From an uncultured Campylobacterales bacterium (lineage in GTDB: Bacteria > Campylobacterota > Campylobacteria > Campylobacterales > Arcobacteraceae): a DNA stretch of 64,000 bases. The stretch lies in the NCBI GenBank assembly GCA_938084175.1, contig CALKDR010000044.1, forward strand, positions 1 through 64,000. The letters are read 5' to 3'. Of the stretch, positions 24,297 through 32,144 are shown one piece after another. The first letter of the stretch is position 1; each line of letters opens with the position of its first letter. The translations under genes and the position numbers were made by a program. Below the pieces are notes generated by a model. The model was given only the letters and a program-made list of their open reading frames with translations. It was not told the DNA's origin and did no database searches.

Positions 24297-24324
24297 ATAA
24301 GAGAGAAGATTCTCTCTTATTTAT
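24294..24324. terminator. Bidirectional terminator between thrE-like and putA genes
   Basis: ATAAATAAGAGAGA-agat-TCTCTCTTATTTAT. Confidence 0.7.
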
Positions 24325-27300
24325 TAAGCTAAATCTCTAGCACCAATATTTCCATATCTATGGAAAGAGTGTGAGATTGATTGTTCGATAAAGTAGTTTA
24401 AAAGCTCTAATCTACCTTCCATCATTGGTTTTTGTCTAACTATAAAAGTTAATGTTTGAGCAGATTTTTTAAATACTATATCTGATACTTTTGCAATATC
24501 TGAATAAATTACTCTATCAAAGTTATGCATTGATTTAATCATTTCTTCATCTGTTTGAGAAATTAAAGCATCTCTTGGACCAAATAACTCTTTTGAATTT
24601 TCTAAGAAAGATTCAACTAATTTATTTTCAGAAATAGAAACTTTAAATCTAACACCTGAAACTTTTGCTGCTAAAATTCTACAAACTGCTTCAAAAATTG
24701 TATCATCTCTTGACACTCTAATTAGTACATTATCTAAAGGAAGATATCTAAAGTGATTGTCTTCACCTCTAATTTTTGCATAATCTTTTTCTTGTGAAAA
24801 TTCACTATCGTAATTTGAATAGTAAGATTGTAATGCAATAGACAGTTTTTCAAAATCTTCTTTGTTGTTTTGTGTCTTAACACAATTATCAATAAATTTA
24901 GTCAATTCTGTTTTGTATATCTTAGATGATTTTGGATCATTTGTCTCTTTTATATCAACAAACTGAGTTATATAGTTATAAAAACCTGCTTTTCTTCCTG
25001 CTCCAATTGCTGATTTACCCATACCACCAAAAGGCTGTCTTAAAACTATAGCTCCTGTCGTTCCTCTATTTACATAAAGGTTACCAGCTTTTAAGTTTTC
25101 TTTCCAGTATTCTACTTCTCTTTCATCTAATGACTCAATTCCAGAAGTTAATCCGTATCCAGTTGCATTTACAATTTTTACCGCATGCTCTAAGCTACTA
25201 GCTTTTATAACAGCTAAAACAGGTCCAAATAATTCATTCATATGAATGAAACTTCCCTCTTCAACTCCCCATTTAATAGCAGGTTTTAACATATAAGGGT
25301 TGTTATCTACATATGAAGGTTTTAAAGCCCAAGTTTCATTACCCTCAAGCACATCTAATGCACGTTCTAGGTTACCACTTACTTTATTAGCTAGTGTTCC
25401 AATTCTGTTTTTAAAATCCCAAATCGAACCTACATTCATAGAAGATGCTGTATCAATTAATGCTTTTTTAAATGAAGTATCATTATAAACCTCATCTTCT
25501 AAAATTAAAAGTGAAGTAGCTGAGCATTTTTGACCTGAGTTTCCAAAAGCACTTTGGCATACATTTTTAACAGCTTGTTCTCTATCTGCCATATTCGTAA
25601 CAATAGTTGCATCTTTTCCACCAGTTTCTGCTGATAAGAATAAATCATTTCTTGTTTCAAGCATAGTAGAAGCTGTATCTTCGCCACCTGTTAAAATTAA
25701 AAAGTCAACATCTTTATTTGGTATTAAATGCTCACCTGCAAGCGCACCTGGACAAGGAAGGAATTGTAAAGTATTTTTCGAAATTCCAGCATCCCAAAAA
25801 CACTTACACATTTCATAAGCACATAAAGCTGCTACTGAAGCTGGTTTTATAATTACAGTATTACCAGCTGCAAGTGCAGAAGCTACTCCACCTGTTGGAA
25901 TTGCTATTGGGAAATTCCAAGGAGGAACAACAACGCCTACACCTTTTGCATTTACTTCTAAATTTTCATAAGAATCAAAATGTCTTACTGCATGTGAATA
26001 AAATTCAATAAAATCAATAGCCTCAGATACTTCTACATCAGTTTCTGTAAATACCTTACCAACCTCAGCAGCAGCGACTCCTATTAAATCATCTCTTCTT
26101 TCTCGTATTTTAATTGCAGCTTTTTTTAAAGCTACATGTCTTTGTGCATGAGTTAAATCTCTCCATCCATCAACATCAGCACGTGCTACTGCAACAGCCT
26201 TATCAATATCTTCTTTATTTGCAAGTGCAAATTTTCCTGCTAATACATTATCTTGTAATTGCGATTTATCAATAGCATCATAAATTTTTCGCTCACCAAT
26301 TAAATCAACTCCACCCACAACAACAGGAGCAATTTCGTGAACACTATTAGCTGTGTGTTTCCATTTTTTAACAATATTAGCAGCCCACTCGTGATTTTTT
26401 TCTAAGATAAAATCAGTATCAGCTTCTGCATGGTATGAGTTTGTATCAAAAGAAGAGTTTGAAAAGTTATCCCATTTTTCTTCTAATCTATTTTGAGTTC
26501 TCTTTGAACCCACAAAAGATGTTTTTTCAACTTCAAAAGATTCTCTAAATAAATTCTCTTGCATTTTCCAATCTTTTGAACCAACTGTTAATCCAAATGA
26601 ATATCGTATAAAGTTATTTGGACCTGTATTTTCATCAAGTCTTCTTACTAAATAAGCAATTGCATTTGTAAACTGCTCTTTTGATGCAGTTGGTGCATAT
26701 AAAATCACTTCTTTTGAAATCTCTTTAATAGCAAGTCTTGCAGATTCGCTCATACCTTCTAGCATTTCTAAAGTATGAAACTGGCTTGTAGCATTTTGTT
26801 GTGCCGTAACTGTAGCAAATGCTAATTCAAATAAATTATGTGAAGCAGTTCCTATGTGCATATAAGGAGCATTTTCCTTATCTAACGCATATCTTACCAT
26901 TCTTTTATAGTTTGAATCAGTGTCGCACTTTTCTACATAAGTAACCATTTCCCAATGCTTTTGAGAAGCTTCTGTTTCTTCCATTTCCATATTAGCACCC
27001 TTAACAAGTCTAAACTTGATAGGACTTCCACCATTTTGAACTCTTTGTTTTGCCCAATTACATAAGTCTTGTTGCCAAAGGAATGAATCTGGTAAATAAG
27101 CTTGTAATACAATTCCAGCATAAAGGTTTTTAAATTGTGGTTTTTCTAAAGCCTTTTTGAATACTTCAACAGTAATTGCTAAATCTCTATACTCTTCCAT
27201 ATCAAGATTTATAAACTTATCTCTTTTTTCTCCAGCTTTTGTTACATACTTATTTTTTTGTGCTGCATCATAAATTTTTGTAAGTTTTTCAACTAGAATC

Positions 27301-27893
27301 TCAACCACATTATCAAAGTTCAAAGGATTTATTTGTGAGAAAATAGTAGATATTTTAATAGAAATATAGTCAACATTAGGATTTTCTAATGCCTTTATAT
27401 ATTTTTCCATTCGCTCAAGAGCTTCTTGCTCACCAAGTACAACTTCACCAATAAGGTTGATATTTACTCTAGTTCCTTCTTCTTTTCTTTTTTTAAGATG
27501 GGCATTAAAGATTTCTTCTTCACCTTTAATTACGACAGTATTTGTATCTTCTCTAATTTGATTTACAAATAAAGGAACAGAAATACTTGGTAAGTACTTA
27601 CCTATATTTTGAAATAAATATAAAAGTGTTTTATCTTTTGTTGTAAAAAAATGTGCCATACCATGTTTTTCAAGTAAAAAACATATTTGATCTGCAATTC
27701 TAGCATTAGACTTGGCTCTAAAGCATTGATCCATAAGCTCAATTAAAAGCGCTTTATCTTTTGGTTGTTCAAGCATTTTATTCATTTTTATATAAAATTC
27801 TCTATCCCAGTCACTAACAAGTTGTGTAGCTCTATTTTGCCATTTACTAGCAAGGTTTACAGCTAAATCTATAAGTTCTTGTTCTTTTTTCAT
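24324..27893 (-). CDS. putA: Bifunctional proline dehydrogenase / L-glutamate gamma-semialdehyde dehydrogenase
   Basis: 1189 aa; PRODH text (KFRLVKGANMEMEE) then ALDH (GVGVVVPPWNFPIAIPTGGVASALAAGNTVIIKPAS; AFGNSGQKCSATSLLILE). Confidence 0.95.
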   Translation of the reverse strand: MKKEQELIDLAVNLASKWQNRATQLVSDWDREFYIKMNKMLEQPKDKALLIELMDQCFRAKSNARIADQICFLLEKHGMAHFFTTKDKTLLYLFQNIGKYLPSISVPLFVNQIREDTNTVVIKGEEEIFNAHLKKRKEEGTRVNINLIGEVVLGEQEALERMEKYIKALENPNVDYISIKISTIFSQINPLNFDNVVEILVEKLTKIYDAAQKNKYVTKAGEKRDKFINLDMEEYRDLAITVEVFKKALEKPQFKNLYAGIVLQAYLPDSFLWQQDLCNWAKQRVQNGGSPIKFRLVKGANMEMEETEASQKHWEMVTYVEKCDTDSNYKRMVRYALDKENAPYMHIGTASHNLFELAFATVTAQQNATSQFHTLEMLEGMSESARLAIKEISKEVILYAPTASKEQFTNAIAYLVRRLDENTGPNNFIRYSFGLTVGSKDWKMQENLFRESFEVEKTSFVGSKRTQNRLEEKWDNFSNSSFDTNSYHAEADTDFILEKNHEWAANIVKKWKHTANSVHEIAPVVVGGVDLIGERKIYDAIDKSQLQDNVLAGKFALANKEDIDKAVAVARADVDGWRDLTHAQRHVALKKAAIKIRERRDDLIGVAAAEVGKVFTETDVEVSEAIDFIEFYSHAVRHFDSYENLEVNAKGVGVVVPPWNFPIAIPTGGVASALAAGNTVIIKPASVAALCAYEMCKCFWDAGISKNTLQFLPCPGALAGEHLIPNKDVDFLILTGGEDTASTMLETRNDLFLSAETGGKDATIVTNMADREQAVKNVCQSAFGNSGQKCSATSLLILEDEVYNDTSFKKALIDTASSMNVGSIWDFKNRIGTLANKVSGNLERALDVLEGNETWALKPSYVDNNPYMLKPAIKWGVEEGSFIHMNELFGPVLAVIKASSLEHAVKIVNATGYGLTSGIESLDEREVEYWKENLKAGNLYVNRGTTGAIVLRQPFGGMGKSAIGAGRKAGFYNYITQFVDIKETNDPKSSKIYKTELTKFIDNCVKTQNNKEDFEKLSIALQSYYSNYDSEFSQEKDYAKIRGEDNHFRYLPLDNVLIRVSRDDTIFEAVCRILAAKVSGVRFKVSISENKLVESFLENSKELFGPRDALISQTDEEMIKSMHNFDRVIYSDIAKVSDIVFKKSAQTLTFIVRQKPMMEGRLELLNYFIEQSISHSFHRYGNIGARDLA

Positions 27894-28092: not shown

Positions 28093-28818
28093 TTAATGTA
28101 ATACCTTGCTTAAGAATTGTTGTGTTCTTTCTTTTTTAGGATTTTCAATTACCTCTTCTGGTGTTCCAATTTCTTCAATTACACCTTTATGAAAAAATGC
28201 AACTTTATCAGAAACTTCTCTTGCAAATGCAATTTCATGTGTAACTGTAATCATCGTCATTCCATCATCTCTTAAAAGTCTTAAAGTATCAAGTACTTCT
28301 CCAACTAATTCAGGATCAAGTGCTGATGTAACTTCATCAAAAAGCATATACTCAGGCTTCATAGCTAATGCTCTTGCAATTGCTAATCTTTGTTGCTGAC
28401 CTCCTGACATTCTTGTAGGATACATATCAAACTTATCTCCAAGTCCTACATGAATTAGCTCTTTTTTTGCAATTTCCATTGCTTCTTCTTTACTTTGTTT
28501 TAATACAATTTGAGGAGCAAGTGCAGCATTTTCTAAAACAGTTAAATGAGGAAAAGAGTTCCATTGTTGAAAAACCATTCCTAGTTTTTGTCTTAAAATA
28601 TCTTGATTTGTTTCTTTTGCATGAACATCAACATCATCAACAAGAATCTTACCTTTTTGAATTTTTTCAATTGCGTTAATACAATATAATAAAGTAGATT
28701 TTCCACTACCACTACCACCAATTACACTAACAACTTCACCTTTATTAACATCTAAGTCAATACCTTTTAAAACTTCTAAATCACCAAACGATTTGTGTAC
28801 ACCTCTAATTTGAATCAT
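28093..28818 (-). CDS. Amino-acid ABC transporter ATP-binding protein
   Basis: GGSGSGKST, MSGGQQQRLAIARAL, YMLFDEVTSALDP. Confidence 0.93.
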   Translation of the reverse strand: MIQIRGVHKSFGDLEVLKGIDLDVNKGEVVSVIGGSGSGKSTLLYCINAIEKIQKGKILVDDVDVHAKETNQDILRQKLGMVFQQWNSFPHLTVLENAALAPQIVLKQSKEEAMEIAKKELIHVGLGDKFDMYPTRMSGGQQQRLAIARALAMKPEYMLFDEVTSALDPELVGEVLDTLRLLRDDGMTMITVTHEIAFAREVSDKVAFFHKGVIEEIGTPEEVIENPKKERTQQFLSKVLH

Positions 28819-29465
28819 AATGCCATTTTCCTTTCAAGTCTTTTTCCATATAACGATAATGGATATGAAATAATAAAGTAAAAAATTCCAACTCCAATAA
28901 GTATCTCTAAGGGTTGTTGTGACCTTGAGATGAGTTGTTCTGAAGTTCTTAATAACTCCATATATCCAATAACTGAAACTAAAGCTGAATCTTTAATCAC
29001 AGAAAGTGCTACTCCAATCCATGAAGGCAATACTGCTCTTAATCCAATAGGAGTTCTTACATATCTAACAGTTTGCCAATAAGTCATACCTAAAGACCTT
29101 GCAGCTGTTCTCATTGATTGATGAACACTTTCAAAACCTGCTCTAAATACTTCTGTCATAAAAGCCATTGTATATAAAGATAAAACAATAGAACCAGCTA
29201 CAAAAGGATTAAGAGGATAACCCATAACACCCATGAATGTAGTAAACAACACAAGTTGAATAATCAAAGGAACAGATCTTAAAATATCTACAAAACCACC
29301 TAAAATAAAGTTTCCTAATTTTCCACTCTCAGCTCTTGCAAAACCAACAATTAAACCTAAAATACTTCCAATTACAATAGCAACTACTGAAATATAGATA
29401 GTATTTAAAATACCTTCTAAAATAAAACCTGCATCATTCCATGATAAGGGAGTAAATAATGACAT
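28815..29465 (-). CDS. Amino-acid ABC transporter permease
   Basis: HisM-type permease; FMTEVFRAGFESVHQSMRTAARSLGM. Confidence 0.9.
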   Translation of the reverse strand: MSLFTPLSWNDAGFILEGILNTIYISVVAIVIGSILGLIVGFARAESGKLGNFILGGFVDILRSVPLIIQLVLFTTFMGVMGYPLNPFVAGSIVLSLYTMAFMTEVFRAGFESVHQSMRTAARSLGMTYWQTVRYVRTPIGLRAVLPSWIGVALSVIKDSALVSVIGYMELLRTSEQLISRSQQPLEILIGVGIFYFIISYPLSLYGKRLERKMAL

Positions 29466-30130
29466 TATATATCTCCTTTAAATAATTTTTTTGAAACTAA
29501 GTTAGCTACGAATAAAACTAACTTTGTAATTATAAAATAGATGATTGCAGCTGCAATAAAGAATTCTAATGTTCTAAAAGATAAAGATTGTAATCTTTGT
29601 GTCTCTCCAGCTAACTCACTCATACCAACTAAAATACCTAATGAACTCATAAGAATAGACCAAACAAATTGATTAGTCATTGGGTGATGAATTTTCCTAA
29701 ACATTTGAGGTAAAATCACATATCTATATACTTGAAATTGGTTCATTCCTAATGATTTAGATGCACTGTACTGAGTTTTAGGAATAGATTGAAATCCTCC
29801 TCTAAAAGTTTCAGCTAAGTAACCAGCGTTTATAAAAACCAAAGCAGAAAATACTGCAAAATAAGGACTTAAATGAATACCAAATGCTCCTAAACCAAAA
29901 TACGCCATATATATTTGAAACAATGCTGGTGTATTTCTTGCAATCTCAATCCATGTATTTGAAAAATAAGAAAAAATCTTAAATTCTGACATTTTTCCTA
30001 AAGCTAAAAAAACTGCTATTACAATACCAACTAACATAGACAATACTGATACATGTAAAGTAACAAAAGCACCATCAAGTAGTTGTGGCCATGCATTTAA
30101 TACTACATTCCAATGAAATTCATAATCCAT
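29465..30130 (-). CDS. Amino-acid ABC transporter permease
   Basis: HisM-type permease; YLAETFRGGFQSIPKTQYSASKSLGM. Confidence 0.9.
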   Translation of the reverse strand: MDYEFHWNVVLNAWPQLLDGAFVTLHVSVLSMLVGIVIAVFLALGKMSEFKIFSYFSNTWIEIARNTPALFQIYMAYFGLGAFGIHLSPYFAVFSALVFINAGYLAETFRGGFQSIPKTQYSASKSLGMNQFQVYRYVILPQMFRKIHHPMTNQFVWSILMSSLGILVGMSELAGETQRLQSLSFRTLEFFIAAAIIYFIITKLVLFVANLVSKKLFKGDI

Positions 30131-30165
30131 TTATTCTCTCCTCCTTATTATTTAAATTCTCCAAC

Positions 30166-30184
30166 GAGGCCTAAAAAAGACCTC
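30166..30184 (-). other. Intercistronic hairpin after the SBP gene
   Basis: Minus strand GAGGTC-TTTTTTA-GGCCTC (one U-G wobble); no following U-tract. Confidence 0.45.
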
Positions 30185-30194
30185 TAAGCAAAAC

Positions 30195-31022
30195 TTATTT
30201 GTTGTCTCTTAAAGACTGAATTAACGCCTGAGGAGCAGATGTTCCAAAATGTTTTTTATATGCTGCTTCTAATTTACCATCTCTGATTTGGTGAACTAAA
30301 AATAAGTTTAAGTAGTTGATAAATGCTACTTCACTTCTTTTAGTAATAATACCAACCACGTCGTCATAATTAGGTACAAAAGGACCAGCTACATAATCTT
30401 TAAACTCTTTAGTTTGAAGTTTAGTTGCGATATTAGTATTTGTTGAAATAATTGCATCAACTTTTCCTTGGTATAAACCTAAGTAAGCATCGTTTTCAGA
30501 TTTGAATGATGTATAATTGCTTTTTCCCCAACCTTTTTCTTTTGCATAACTTAAATATTCTGTTTCATAAGTTGTACCAATTGCAGCACCAACTTTAACA
30601 TTTTTTAAATCATCAAAAGTTTTGATTGAAGTACCTTTTTTAGAAATAACTTGGAACTTGAATACGAAATATGGAGTTGTGAAACCAGCTGATTTTGCTC
30701 TTTCTAAAGTATCAGAAGTAGAACCAATTACAACATCTGTTTTACCAGATACTAATGATGGAATTCTATCTGCCCATGTTAAGTTAAGTACATTTGATTT
30801 TACACCTAATGCTTTTGCTAAATCATTACAATAATCAACATCAAAACCTGCTGCTTTATTATCTTTATCAAAATAACCCATTGGTGGGAAATCTAATACA
30901 ACTCCACAATTAAGTTCATTCTTTTTAATAATATCATCTAATTTATCTGCACTAGCACTTGTCATCAAACCTGCAACTGCAACTGTAGCTATTGCCATTG
31001 AAATTTTGTTAAATATTTTCAT
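30195..31022 (-). CDS. Amino-acid ABC transporter substrate-binding protein
   Basis: Signal peptide; LNCGVVLDFPPMGYFDKDNKAAGFDVDYCNDLAKALGV. Confidence 0.92.
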   Translation of the reverse strand: MKIFNKISMAIATVAVAGLMTSASADKLDDIIKKNELNCGVVLDFPPMGYFDKDNKAAGFDVDYCNDLAKALGVKSNVLNLTWADRIPSLVSGKTDVVIGSTSDTLERAKSAGFTTPYFVFKFQVISKKGTSIKTFDDLKNVKVGAAIGTTYETEYLSYAKEKGWGKSNYTSFKSENDAYLGLYQGKVDAIISTNTNIATKLQTKEFKDYVAGPFVPNYDDVVGIITKRSEVAFINYLNLFLVHQIRDGKLEAAYKKHFGTSAPQALIQSLRDNK

Positions 31023-31057: not shown

Positions 31058-31717
31058 TTACACAGCGGGTTCTATAATATAACAACCCACACACCATTCA
31101 CCGATATTTTCAATTTTATTGATGTCTCCCCCTTTGAAGCTTGATTTTAAATTTTTGTATGAAGATACTATATTATCAAAAGATTCAATAATTTCTTCTA
31201 ATCTTTTTTCACTTTTTTTTCTTGCTGTATTTGAAATATCTAAATAGAATGCAAATAGTCCATAATCAAGAGTAGAAGCATCAGGATCTTCTCTTTGAAG
31301 TAGTTTACATATTTGTTCTATATCAGCTTTATATTCGCTTTGTGCATTTCTAACGCCGTTTCTAATACTCATAACAACTTTTGAAATTGAATCATTATCA
31401 CTTTTATGTTCAAATCTTTCATCAAGTGTTAAACATATAACATCTTGTGCAATATTATTCTCTTTCATAAAAGATCTAAAAGCATCTCTTTTAGGTAATG
31501 AACATCTAAGAATATCTGCAATAGTAGCATCAATAAAAATCTCTGGTGGGTTTTGAAGTTTTGCAATTTCTTGAGAGACATGAATAGTTAAAAACTTAGG
31601 AGGTCCATACGATAAGAAAAGTTCATCAGCAGTCCAATTAGTATAATTAGTTTTAGCAACAGTAATACCTTTTATTACTGAAGTAACTATCTCATCTTGA
31701 CTAGGAAACTTTGTCAT
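31058..31717 (-). CDS. Uncharacterised 219-aa protein
   Basis: Long ORF whose ATG overlaps the upstream gene stop (TAATG); family not recognised. Confidence 0.75.
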   Translation of the reverse strand: MTKFPSQDEIVTSVIKGITVAKTNYTNWTADELFLSYGPPKFLTIHVSQEIAKLQNPPEIFIDATIADILRCSLPKRDAFRSFMKENNIAQDVICLTLDERFEHKSDNDSISKVVMSIRNGVRNAQSEYKADIEQICKLLQREDPDASTLDYGLFAFYLDISNTARKKSEKRLEEIIESFDNIVSSYKNLKSSFKGGDINKIENIGEWCVGCYIIEPAV

Positions 31718-31950
31718 TATTCTTCACCTAAATAGTTTTCATCAACTTCTTGAATAATACCACTTTCAAAAAGTATGTCTTCAATTAGTTTATTTTTTGA
31801 TATATTTAATGACTTGCTTAATGTTAAAAGTGCAATATCAAGCTTTTTATCAATCTTAATAGTAAGTTGAGAAATTTCTTTCTTATTACCTTTTTTATGA
31901 TTGTTTATTACTTTTTGAATTACAGTTCTTTTGTTTTTTTGCTTTGCCAT
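31717..31950 (-). CDS. Small ribbon-helix-helix-like DNA-binding protein
   Basis: Basic N-terminus then ISQLTIKIDKKLDIALLTLSKSLNISKNKLIEDILFESG, an RHH-type strand-helix-helix pattern. Confidence 0.65.
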   Translation of the reverse strand: MAKQKNKRTVIQKVINNHKKGNKKEISQLTIKIDKKLDIALLTLSKSLNISKNKLIEDILFESGIIQEVDENYLGEE

Positions 31951-31975
31951 TTTCTATATCTTTTATACAAATATT

Positions 31976-32000
31976 TTAGTAGTACAAAAAGTACTACTAA
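31976..32000. promoter_or_regulatory. Perfect inverted repeat TTAGTAGTAC-AAAAA-GTACTACTAA, candidate operator
   Basis: 10-bp arms, 5-nt spacer, about 26 nt upstream of the RHH-like start codon. Confidence 0.6.
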
Positions 32001-32144
32001 TTTTTATATAGTCATTATTTCGAATGTAAACTTATATCAGACTTAAAAAATGTAGCTTATTTGTATAGAAAGTGATGAATTTGAACTAATATCTTAAAAA
32101 GCTACTTTAATGCTATTTTGATGAGACTTTTAAGTAATTTAGCT

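Follow-up and report, generated by a model that had tools for sequence, protein, structure and literature searches.

A probable local regulator of proline use in Arcobacteraceae, formed by an RHH-like protein and a degenerate nuclease homologue

Is a gene pair that consists of a small RHH-like regulator and an unassigned partner, and that is preceded by a perfect palindrome, a mobile toxin-antitoxin module or a regulator of the genes beside it? The question is raised by a 64,000-nucleotide stretch of DNA from an uncultured member of the Arcobacteraceae (the window), in which a gene for a 77-aa protein overlaps a gene for a 219-aa protein just ahead of an amino-acid ABC importer. An initial annotation took this architecture to resemble a toxin-antitoxin or plasmid-maintenance module, and allowed that the unit might instead be co-transcribed with the importer operon or regulate it. 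We argue that the pair is in all likelihood a local, autoregulating regulator of proline use, with an RHH repressor, a co-opted pseudonuclease, and proline or a related metabolite as the effector.

The locus and its conserved neighbourhood

Each element of the unit is where it had been described (Table 1): the 77-aa RHH-like gene, the 219-aa gene, the TAATG in which the two open reading frames share one base, and a perfect inverted repeat upstream of the first start codon. The repeat, TTAGTAGTACAAAAAGTACTACTAA, is a 25-nt palindrome (its 10-nt arms are fully complementary), and 25 nt separate it from the ATG of the 77-aa gene. The coordinates also bear out a gap of 35 nt between the stop codon of the 219-aa gene and the ATG (31022) of the substrate-binding protein (SBP) gene on the same strand.

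Table 1. Features of the locus, with positions in the window.
Feature	Position	Strand	Remarks
Operator (putative), two GTANTAC boxes	31976..32000	.	Boxes 31979-31985 and 31991-31997; centres 12 bp apart; symmetric TTA/TAA flanks
77-aa RHH-type putative DNA-binding protein	31717..31950	-	Invariant EVDEN stretch near the C-terminus
219-aa partner	31058..31717	-	Probable degenerate PD-(D/E)XK-fold protein without catalytic residues
Promoter-like block, conserved (TTAAGTTT...TGAAATAATGA in relatives)	32001..32055	-	Upstream of the operator; promoter activity putative
SBP, polar-amino-acid ABC importer	30195..31022	-	First target gene in our proposal
ABC importer permease	29465..30130	-	
ABC importer permease	28815..29465	-	Assigned by homology to relatives and by position
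ABC importer ATPase	28093..28818	-	
putA, bifunctional proline dehydrogenase / P5C dehydrogenase without N-terminal RHH domain	24324..27893	-	

The two genes are inherited together. A sample of 397 genomes from the phylum contains 33 with a strong match to the 219-aa family, and these 33, with no others, also have a strong match to the 77-aa family (p = 6e-49); the 219-aa partner was never seen without the RHH gene. Their families are the Arcobacteraceae (label f1), a second family (f20), and a third family (f10) with a single genome; the relatives that carry names are Poseidonibacter and other Arcobacteraceae. The pair is also associated with putA, which encodes the enzyme for proline oxidation. 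Of the 60 relatives compared, 17 carry the 219-aa gene together with putA, 39 have neither, and none has the 219-aa gene only (p = 1.5e-11; a truncated nuclease relative in genome G058 was left out of this count). The remaining four have putA but lack the pair, which counts against the link to proline.

Within the genus and the family, the usual order is the pair, a Liv-type importer (a binding protein, two permeases, and two ATPases), and putA, and the second family has this order likewise. In G012 and G023, putA follows immediately after the pair; in G417 the pair is divergent from putA, with the two-box site described below between them. The window keeps the pair and putA but has a polar-amino-acid importer, probably for proline or hydroxyproline, where relatives have the Liv-type one; the best match to the Liv binding protein in the window's assembly, which is 85% complete, is only 26% identical. 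Against the trifunctional profile, PutA aligns only from a point beyond the RHH region, so PutA here does not have an RHH domain. Elsewhere, orthologues of the window's importer (28093-31022) lie near hydroxyproline genes and proline racemase-family genes.

We found no relatives of the 219-aa protein in 72,556 plasmid records or in viral contigs. Conserved synteny with no plasmid or viral match is not the patchy, mobile distribution in variable contexts that marks type II toxin-antitoxin systems, and the fixed chromosomal place of the pair in the genus, the family, and the second family speaks against a toxin-antitoxin or plasmid module.

The palindrome and further copies of its boxes

Comparison of upstream regions resolves the palindrome into two 7-bp boxes, GTANTAC, that are separated by a 5-nt spacer. 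The two-box site lies 34-51 nt before the start of the RHH gene (measured at the first base of the site) in 38 of the 39 orthologues. Of these sites, 27 are exact and 11 have one or two mismatches; in the remaining region, from G417, the site is elsewhere. None of 3900 shuffled regions contained an exact two-box match. A search of the 1.74 Mb assembly for GTASTACN5GTASTAC, in which the box centres are limited to G or C, gave a single match, at this locus, against 0 control matches. In each close relative that has the pattern there is about one exact copy, almost always at this locus. The repeat thus exceeds what chance would give, and the suggestion that it serves as the unit's own operator is supported.

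Alternatively, the palindrome could form a hairpin in the leader RNA (an attenuator) or a transcription terminator, and a scan did score a terminator-like hairpin there. However, the centre base varies independently in each box while GTA, TAC, and the 5-nt spacer do not change, and in 12 of the 27 exact sites the box centres are unable to pair (G/G, C/C, A/A, C/A, or C/T). Because the centres often cannot pair, we read the palindrome as a DNA operator and not as an RNA hairpin. There is also no Rfam match, and we rejected the hairpin and the terminator as the least credible of all the readings considered here.

RHH regulators use at least two short symmetric subsites at a fixed spacing, and the two GTANTAC boxes have this form: each box is symmetric in itself, as expected if one RHH dimer were to occupy each box. 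The block upstream of the boxes is conserved among relatives. In a general promoter scan, this block was not above chance, and the scores do not exceed those of shuffles. If the block is a promoter, then the operator would lie at the transcript's start, and this position would favour repression.

Further copies of the site extend the link to proline and hydroxyproline genes. Many genomes of the second family, as well as G417 and G023, have extra exact sites 31-56 bp before putA, and G023 also has a site before a polar-amino-acid importer. In G012, a site with a relaxed centre base precedes the gene for D-amino-acid dehydrogenase in a 4-hydroxyproline cluster, and this cluster ends in an importer of the window's type. 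No second site was found in the Arcobacteraceae that have putA behind the importer. When we searched whole genomes with one mismatch allowed, the sites were at background level, so the extent of the regulon outside of the linked loci is uncertain. (One such site in G011, at 1807714, lies inside an open reading frame and was judged to be due to chance.) Two other exact two-box sites lie elsewhere. In G027, the gene for an AGCS-type amino-acid symporter has a site some 70 bp ahead of it (L129:5107-5125). In G002, a site between gltB and a TRAP transporter (L133:5100-5118) hints at a link to glutamate metabolism.

G002 and G003 also contain a second, paralogous pair (L028:5480-6360 and L029:13368-14275), whose boxes are GTAATAC/GTATTAC and which also has a changed beta strand (VVQLSIKI). 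This pair is at the head of an operon that encodes a DDAH-like hydrolase, ornithine cyclodeaminase, arginase, and a transporter and that leads from arginine to proline. With both its boxes and its strand changed, the paralogous pair is a natural test case for the specificity of the boxes.

The two proteins

The 77-aa protein has a pattern, and a pattern of conservation, that fit an RHH domain (strand-helix-helix, about 45 residues), and it has no extra domain. Its match to an Arc-like repressor profile (PHROG 582) is weak (E = 0.0037), and we found no Pfam match and no credible match among PDB sequences. Taken with the paired-box operator, the sequence pattern and the weak profile scores suggest that it is an RHH-type (or RHH-like) DNA-binding protein.

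The 219-aa protein, which the initial annotation could not assign, has no match to any curated family, whether housekeeping or other, and no credible match above the cut-off to a toxin, antitoxin, or defence profile. It appears instead to be a degenerate PD-(D/E)XK homologue. Profile searches led to a set of ~205-aa proteins from other Campylobacterota that have the PD-(D/E)XK signature GRxDI(V)..(I/V)IEVK(N/H), and the 219-aa family aligns with this GRxD...IEVK family across residues 5-185 of the 219-aa protein (hhalign, 98.6%, E = 1.3e-15; reciprocal search, E = 2.8e-15). Two of the ~205-aa nucleases have weak matches to HSDR_N_2, Mrr_cat, or VRR_NUC. Although sequence homology places the 219-aa protein with the PD-(D/E)XK proteins, the catalytic D...(D/E)xK motif is gone. 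In all 32 aligned members (32/32), GRxD has given way to variable residues and the Glu of ExK to Ser, Thr, or Phe, and the Lys is not conserved; because of these losses, the protein is probably a pseudonuclease at most. The same 32 members share a new segment, (I/L)TLDxR(F)xH...(N)DS, that is invariant or nearly so.

Structure prediction gave confident models of the 219-aa protein (pLDDT of 94.6 for the second AlphaFold model, with all five models similarly confident). In the AF2 model, a helix (42-52) and a strand (59-65) are followed by two inserted helices, two more strands (93-99 and 112-120), a helix (127-140), and a strand (152-162). The predicted elements would have the order of the superfamily (helix-strand-strand-strand-helix-strand), yet a Foldseek search of the PDB with the model did not retrieve a superfamily structure and gave only weak methyltransferase- and Alba-like matches. 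A viral structure library yielded two matches with E < 0.001, both with TM < 0.4, and sequence searches of the PDB found nothing credible. The probable link to nucleases is thus based on sequence profiles and on the order of the predicted elements.

The active-looking relatives match the PADLOC profile for Tin (L103-L107; L113 and L114 by alignment), the exclusion protein of phage P2. Unlike the 219-aa family, these small Campylobacterota proteins keep GRxD...(I/V)IEVK, and unlike the pair, they are found in scattered contexts, with no RHH gene in the four loci examined. It is possible that the ~205-aa proteins with the Tin profile are defence nucleases. When used as queries, the nuclease relatives found nothing in plasmid and phage searches. 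Four of the Tin-profile proteins lie at L103:5870-6487, L104:5102-5716, L105:6153-6773, and L106:6154-6762; by eye, there is a small XRE-like regulator gene beside the one in L105 and an ADP-ribosylglycohydrolase-like neighbour in L103. The copy at L107:6079-6477 (G053) is degraded, and the match runs past several stop codons.

A model for proline-responsive control, and its alternatives

We propose that the 77-aa RHH protein would bind as two dimers, one per GTANTAC box, and that the bound protein would repress its own operon (the RHH gene, the 219-aa gene, the amino-acid importer, and putA). Repression is the simplest reading because the boxes are just downstream of the conserved promoter-like block. 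In relatives, the RHH protein would also repress the separate promoters of putA, the importer, and the hydroxyproline genes. Its co-translated 219-aa partner probably makes contact with it, the EVDEN stretch being a possible site, and would sense proline or a product of proline, so that repression is relieved. The most economical mechanism seems to be one in which an RHH repressor occupies two boxes and a partner protein responds to the ligand. The proposal draws its direct support from the conservation of the pair, its linkage, the architecture and extra copies of the operator, the nuclease homology, and the loss of catalytic residues; DNA binding, repression, contact between the two proteins, the effector, and the role of the partner are what we infer. 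For the more specific idea that a PD-(D/E)XK protein of the Tin-like family was recruited as the amino-acid-sensing partner of a stand-alone RHH repressor, we see about an even chance.

A type II toxin-antitoxin system, with an RHH antitoxin and a nuclease-fold toxin that are autoregulated at the palindrome, would have the same gene order, overlap with translational coupling, and palindromic operator, and the partner's homology to PD-(D/E)XK proteins also fits. But every aligned member has lost GRxD and the Glu of ExK, the locus keeps to a single metabolic operon and is absent from plasmid and viral collections, and copies of the operator precede metabolic genes. We consider this reading very improbable, and we set aside toxin-antitoxin, plasmid-maintenance, and defence functions, for which there was no profile match above the cut-off and no plasmid or viral relative. 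Of the initial interpretation, then, the small RHH-type DNA-binding protein, the coupled partner, and the dedicated operator are supported, and the toxin-antitoxin or plasmid-maintenance role is not; comparative evidence strongly supports the other suggestion, that the unit may be co-transcribed with the adjacent amino-acid operon and regulate it.

A different division of labour is also conceivable: the RHH protein could do both jobs, repressing and sensing the ligand, and its 219-aa partner would then play no part in transcription and have another target, such as PutA or the importer. Some RHH proteins, such as MetJ and NikR, do sense small ligands alone, and the occurrence of the 219-aa partner follows that of putA and not only that of the RHH gene. 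On the other hand, the RHH protein has only 77 residues and no additional domain, the partner always accompanies the RHH gene, and at the arginine/ornithine locus both paralogous genes are kept with no putA directly behind them, so we find this division unlikely. Still less likely is that the pair activates, rather than represses, the same operon. In Caulobacter, PutR activates putA in a proline-dependent manner (PMC6168545), but an operator downstream of a conserved promoter-like block is in a place that is typical of repressors.

We therefore favour a two-protein repressor, and it can be compared with the known ways of controlling put genes. In trifunctional PutA of the E. coli / Salmonella type, the N-terminal RHH domain is the autogenous repressor of put (PMC5293562); as proposed for the pair, an RHH domain controls the put genes with feedback on putA (PMC5293562). 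Here, in contrast, no RHH domain is fused to PutA, which is bifunctional, and the 77-aa RHH protein and its 219-aa partner are separate. In Caulobacter and other Alphaproteobacteria, the Lrp/AsnC-type PutR is, as we propose for the pair, a separate local regulator that is encoded beside a bifunctional putA and that responds to proline (PMC6168545). Unlike the proposed repressor pair, PutR is of another protein family, is a single protein and an activator, and is encoded by a divergently transcribed gene. PruR is an AraC-type regulator, and a single protein instead of an RHH pair. As a dedicated and separate regulator of putA, in Pseudomonas aeruginosa (PMC5879082), it is nevertheless similar to the pair.

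In the open-access papers searched, we found no described put regulator for the Arcobacteraceae or for the second Campylobacterota family. What would be new is a two-protein regulator of proline, hydroxyproline, and arginine use that is made of an RHH protein and a pseudonuclease, as a variant of known put control. The locus is also a caution that an RHH gene with a partner and a palindrome need not mean a toxin-antitoxin system, and it is an apparent case of a nuclease that has turned into a regulatory partner. For the Arcobacteraceae and a second family of Campylobacterota, the proposal offers a regulator, an operator, and a regulon for the use of proline, hydroxyproline, and arginine.
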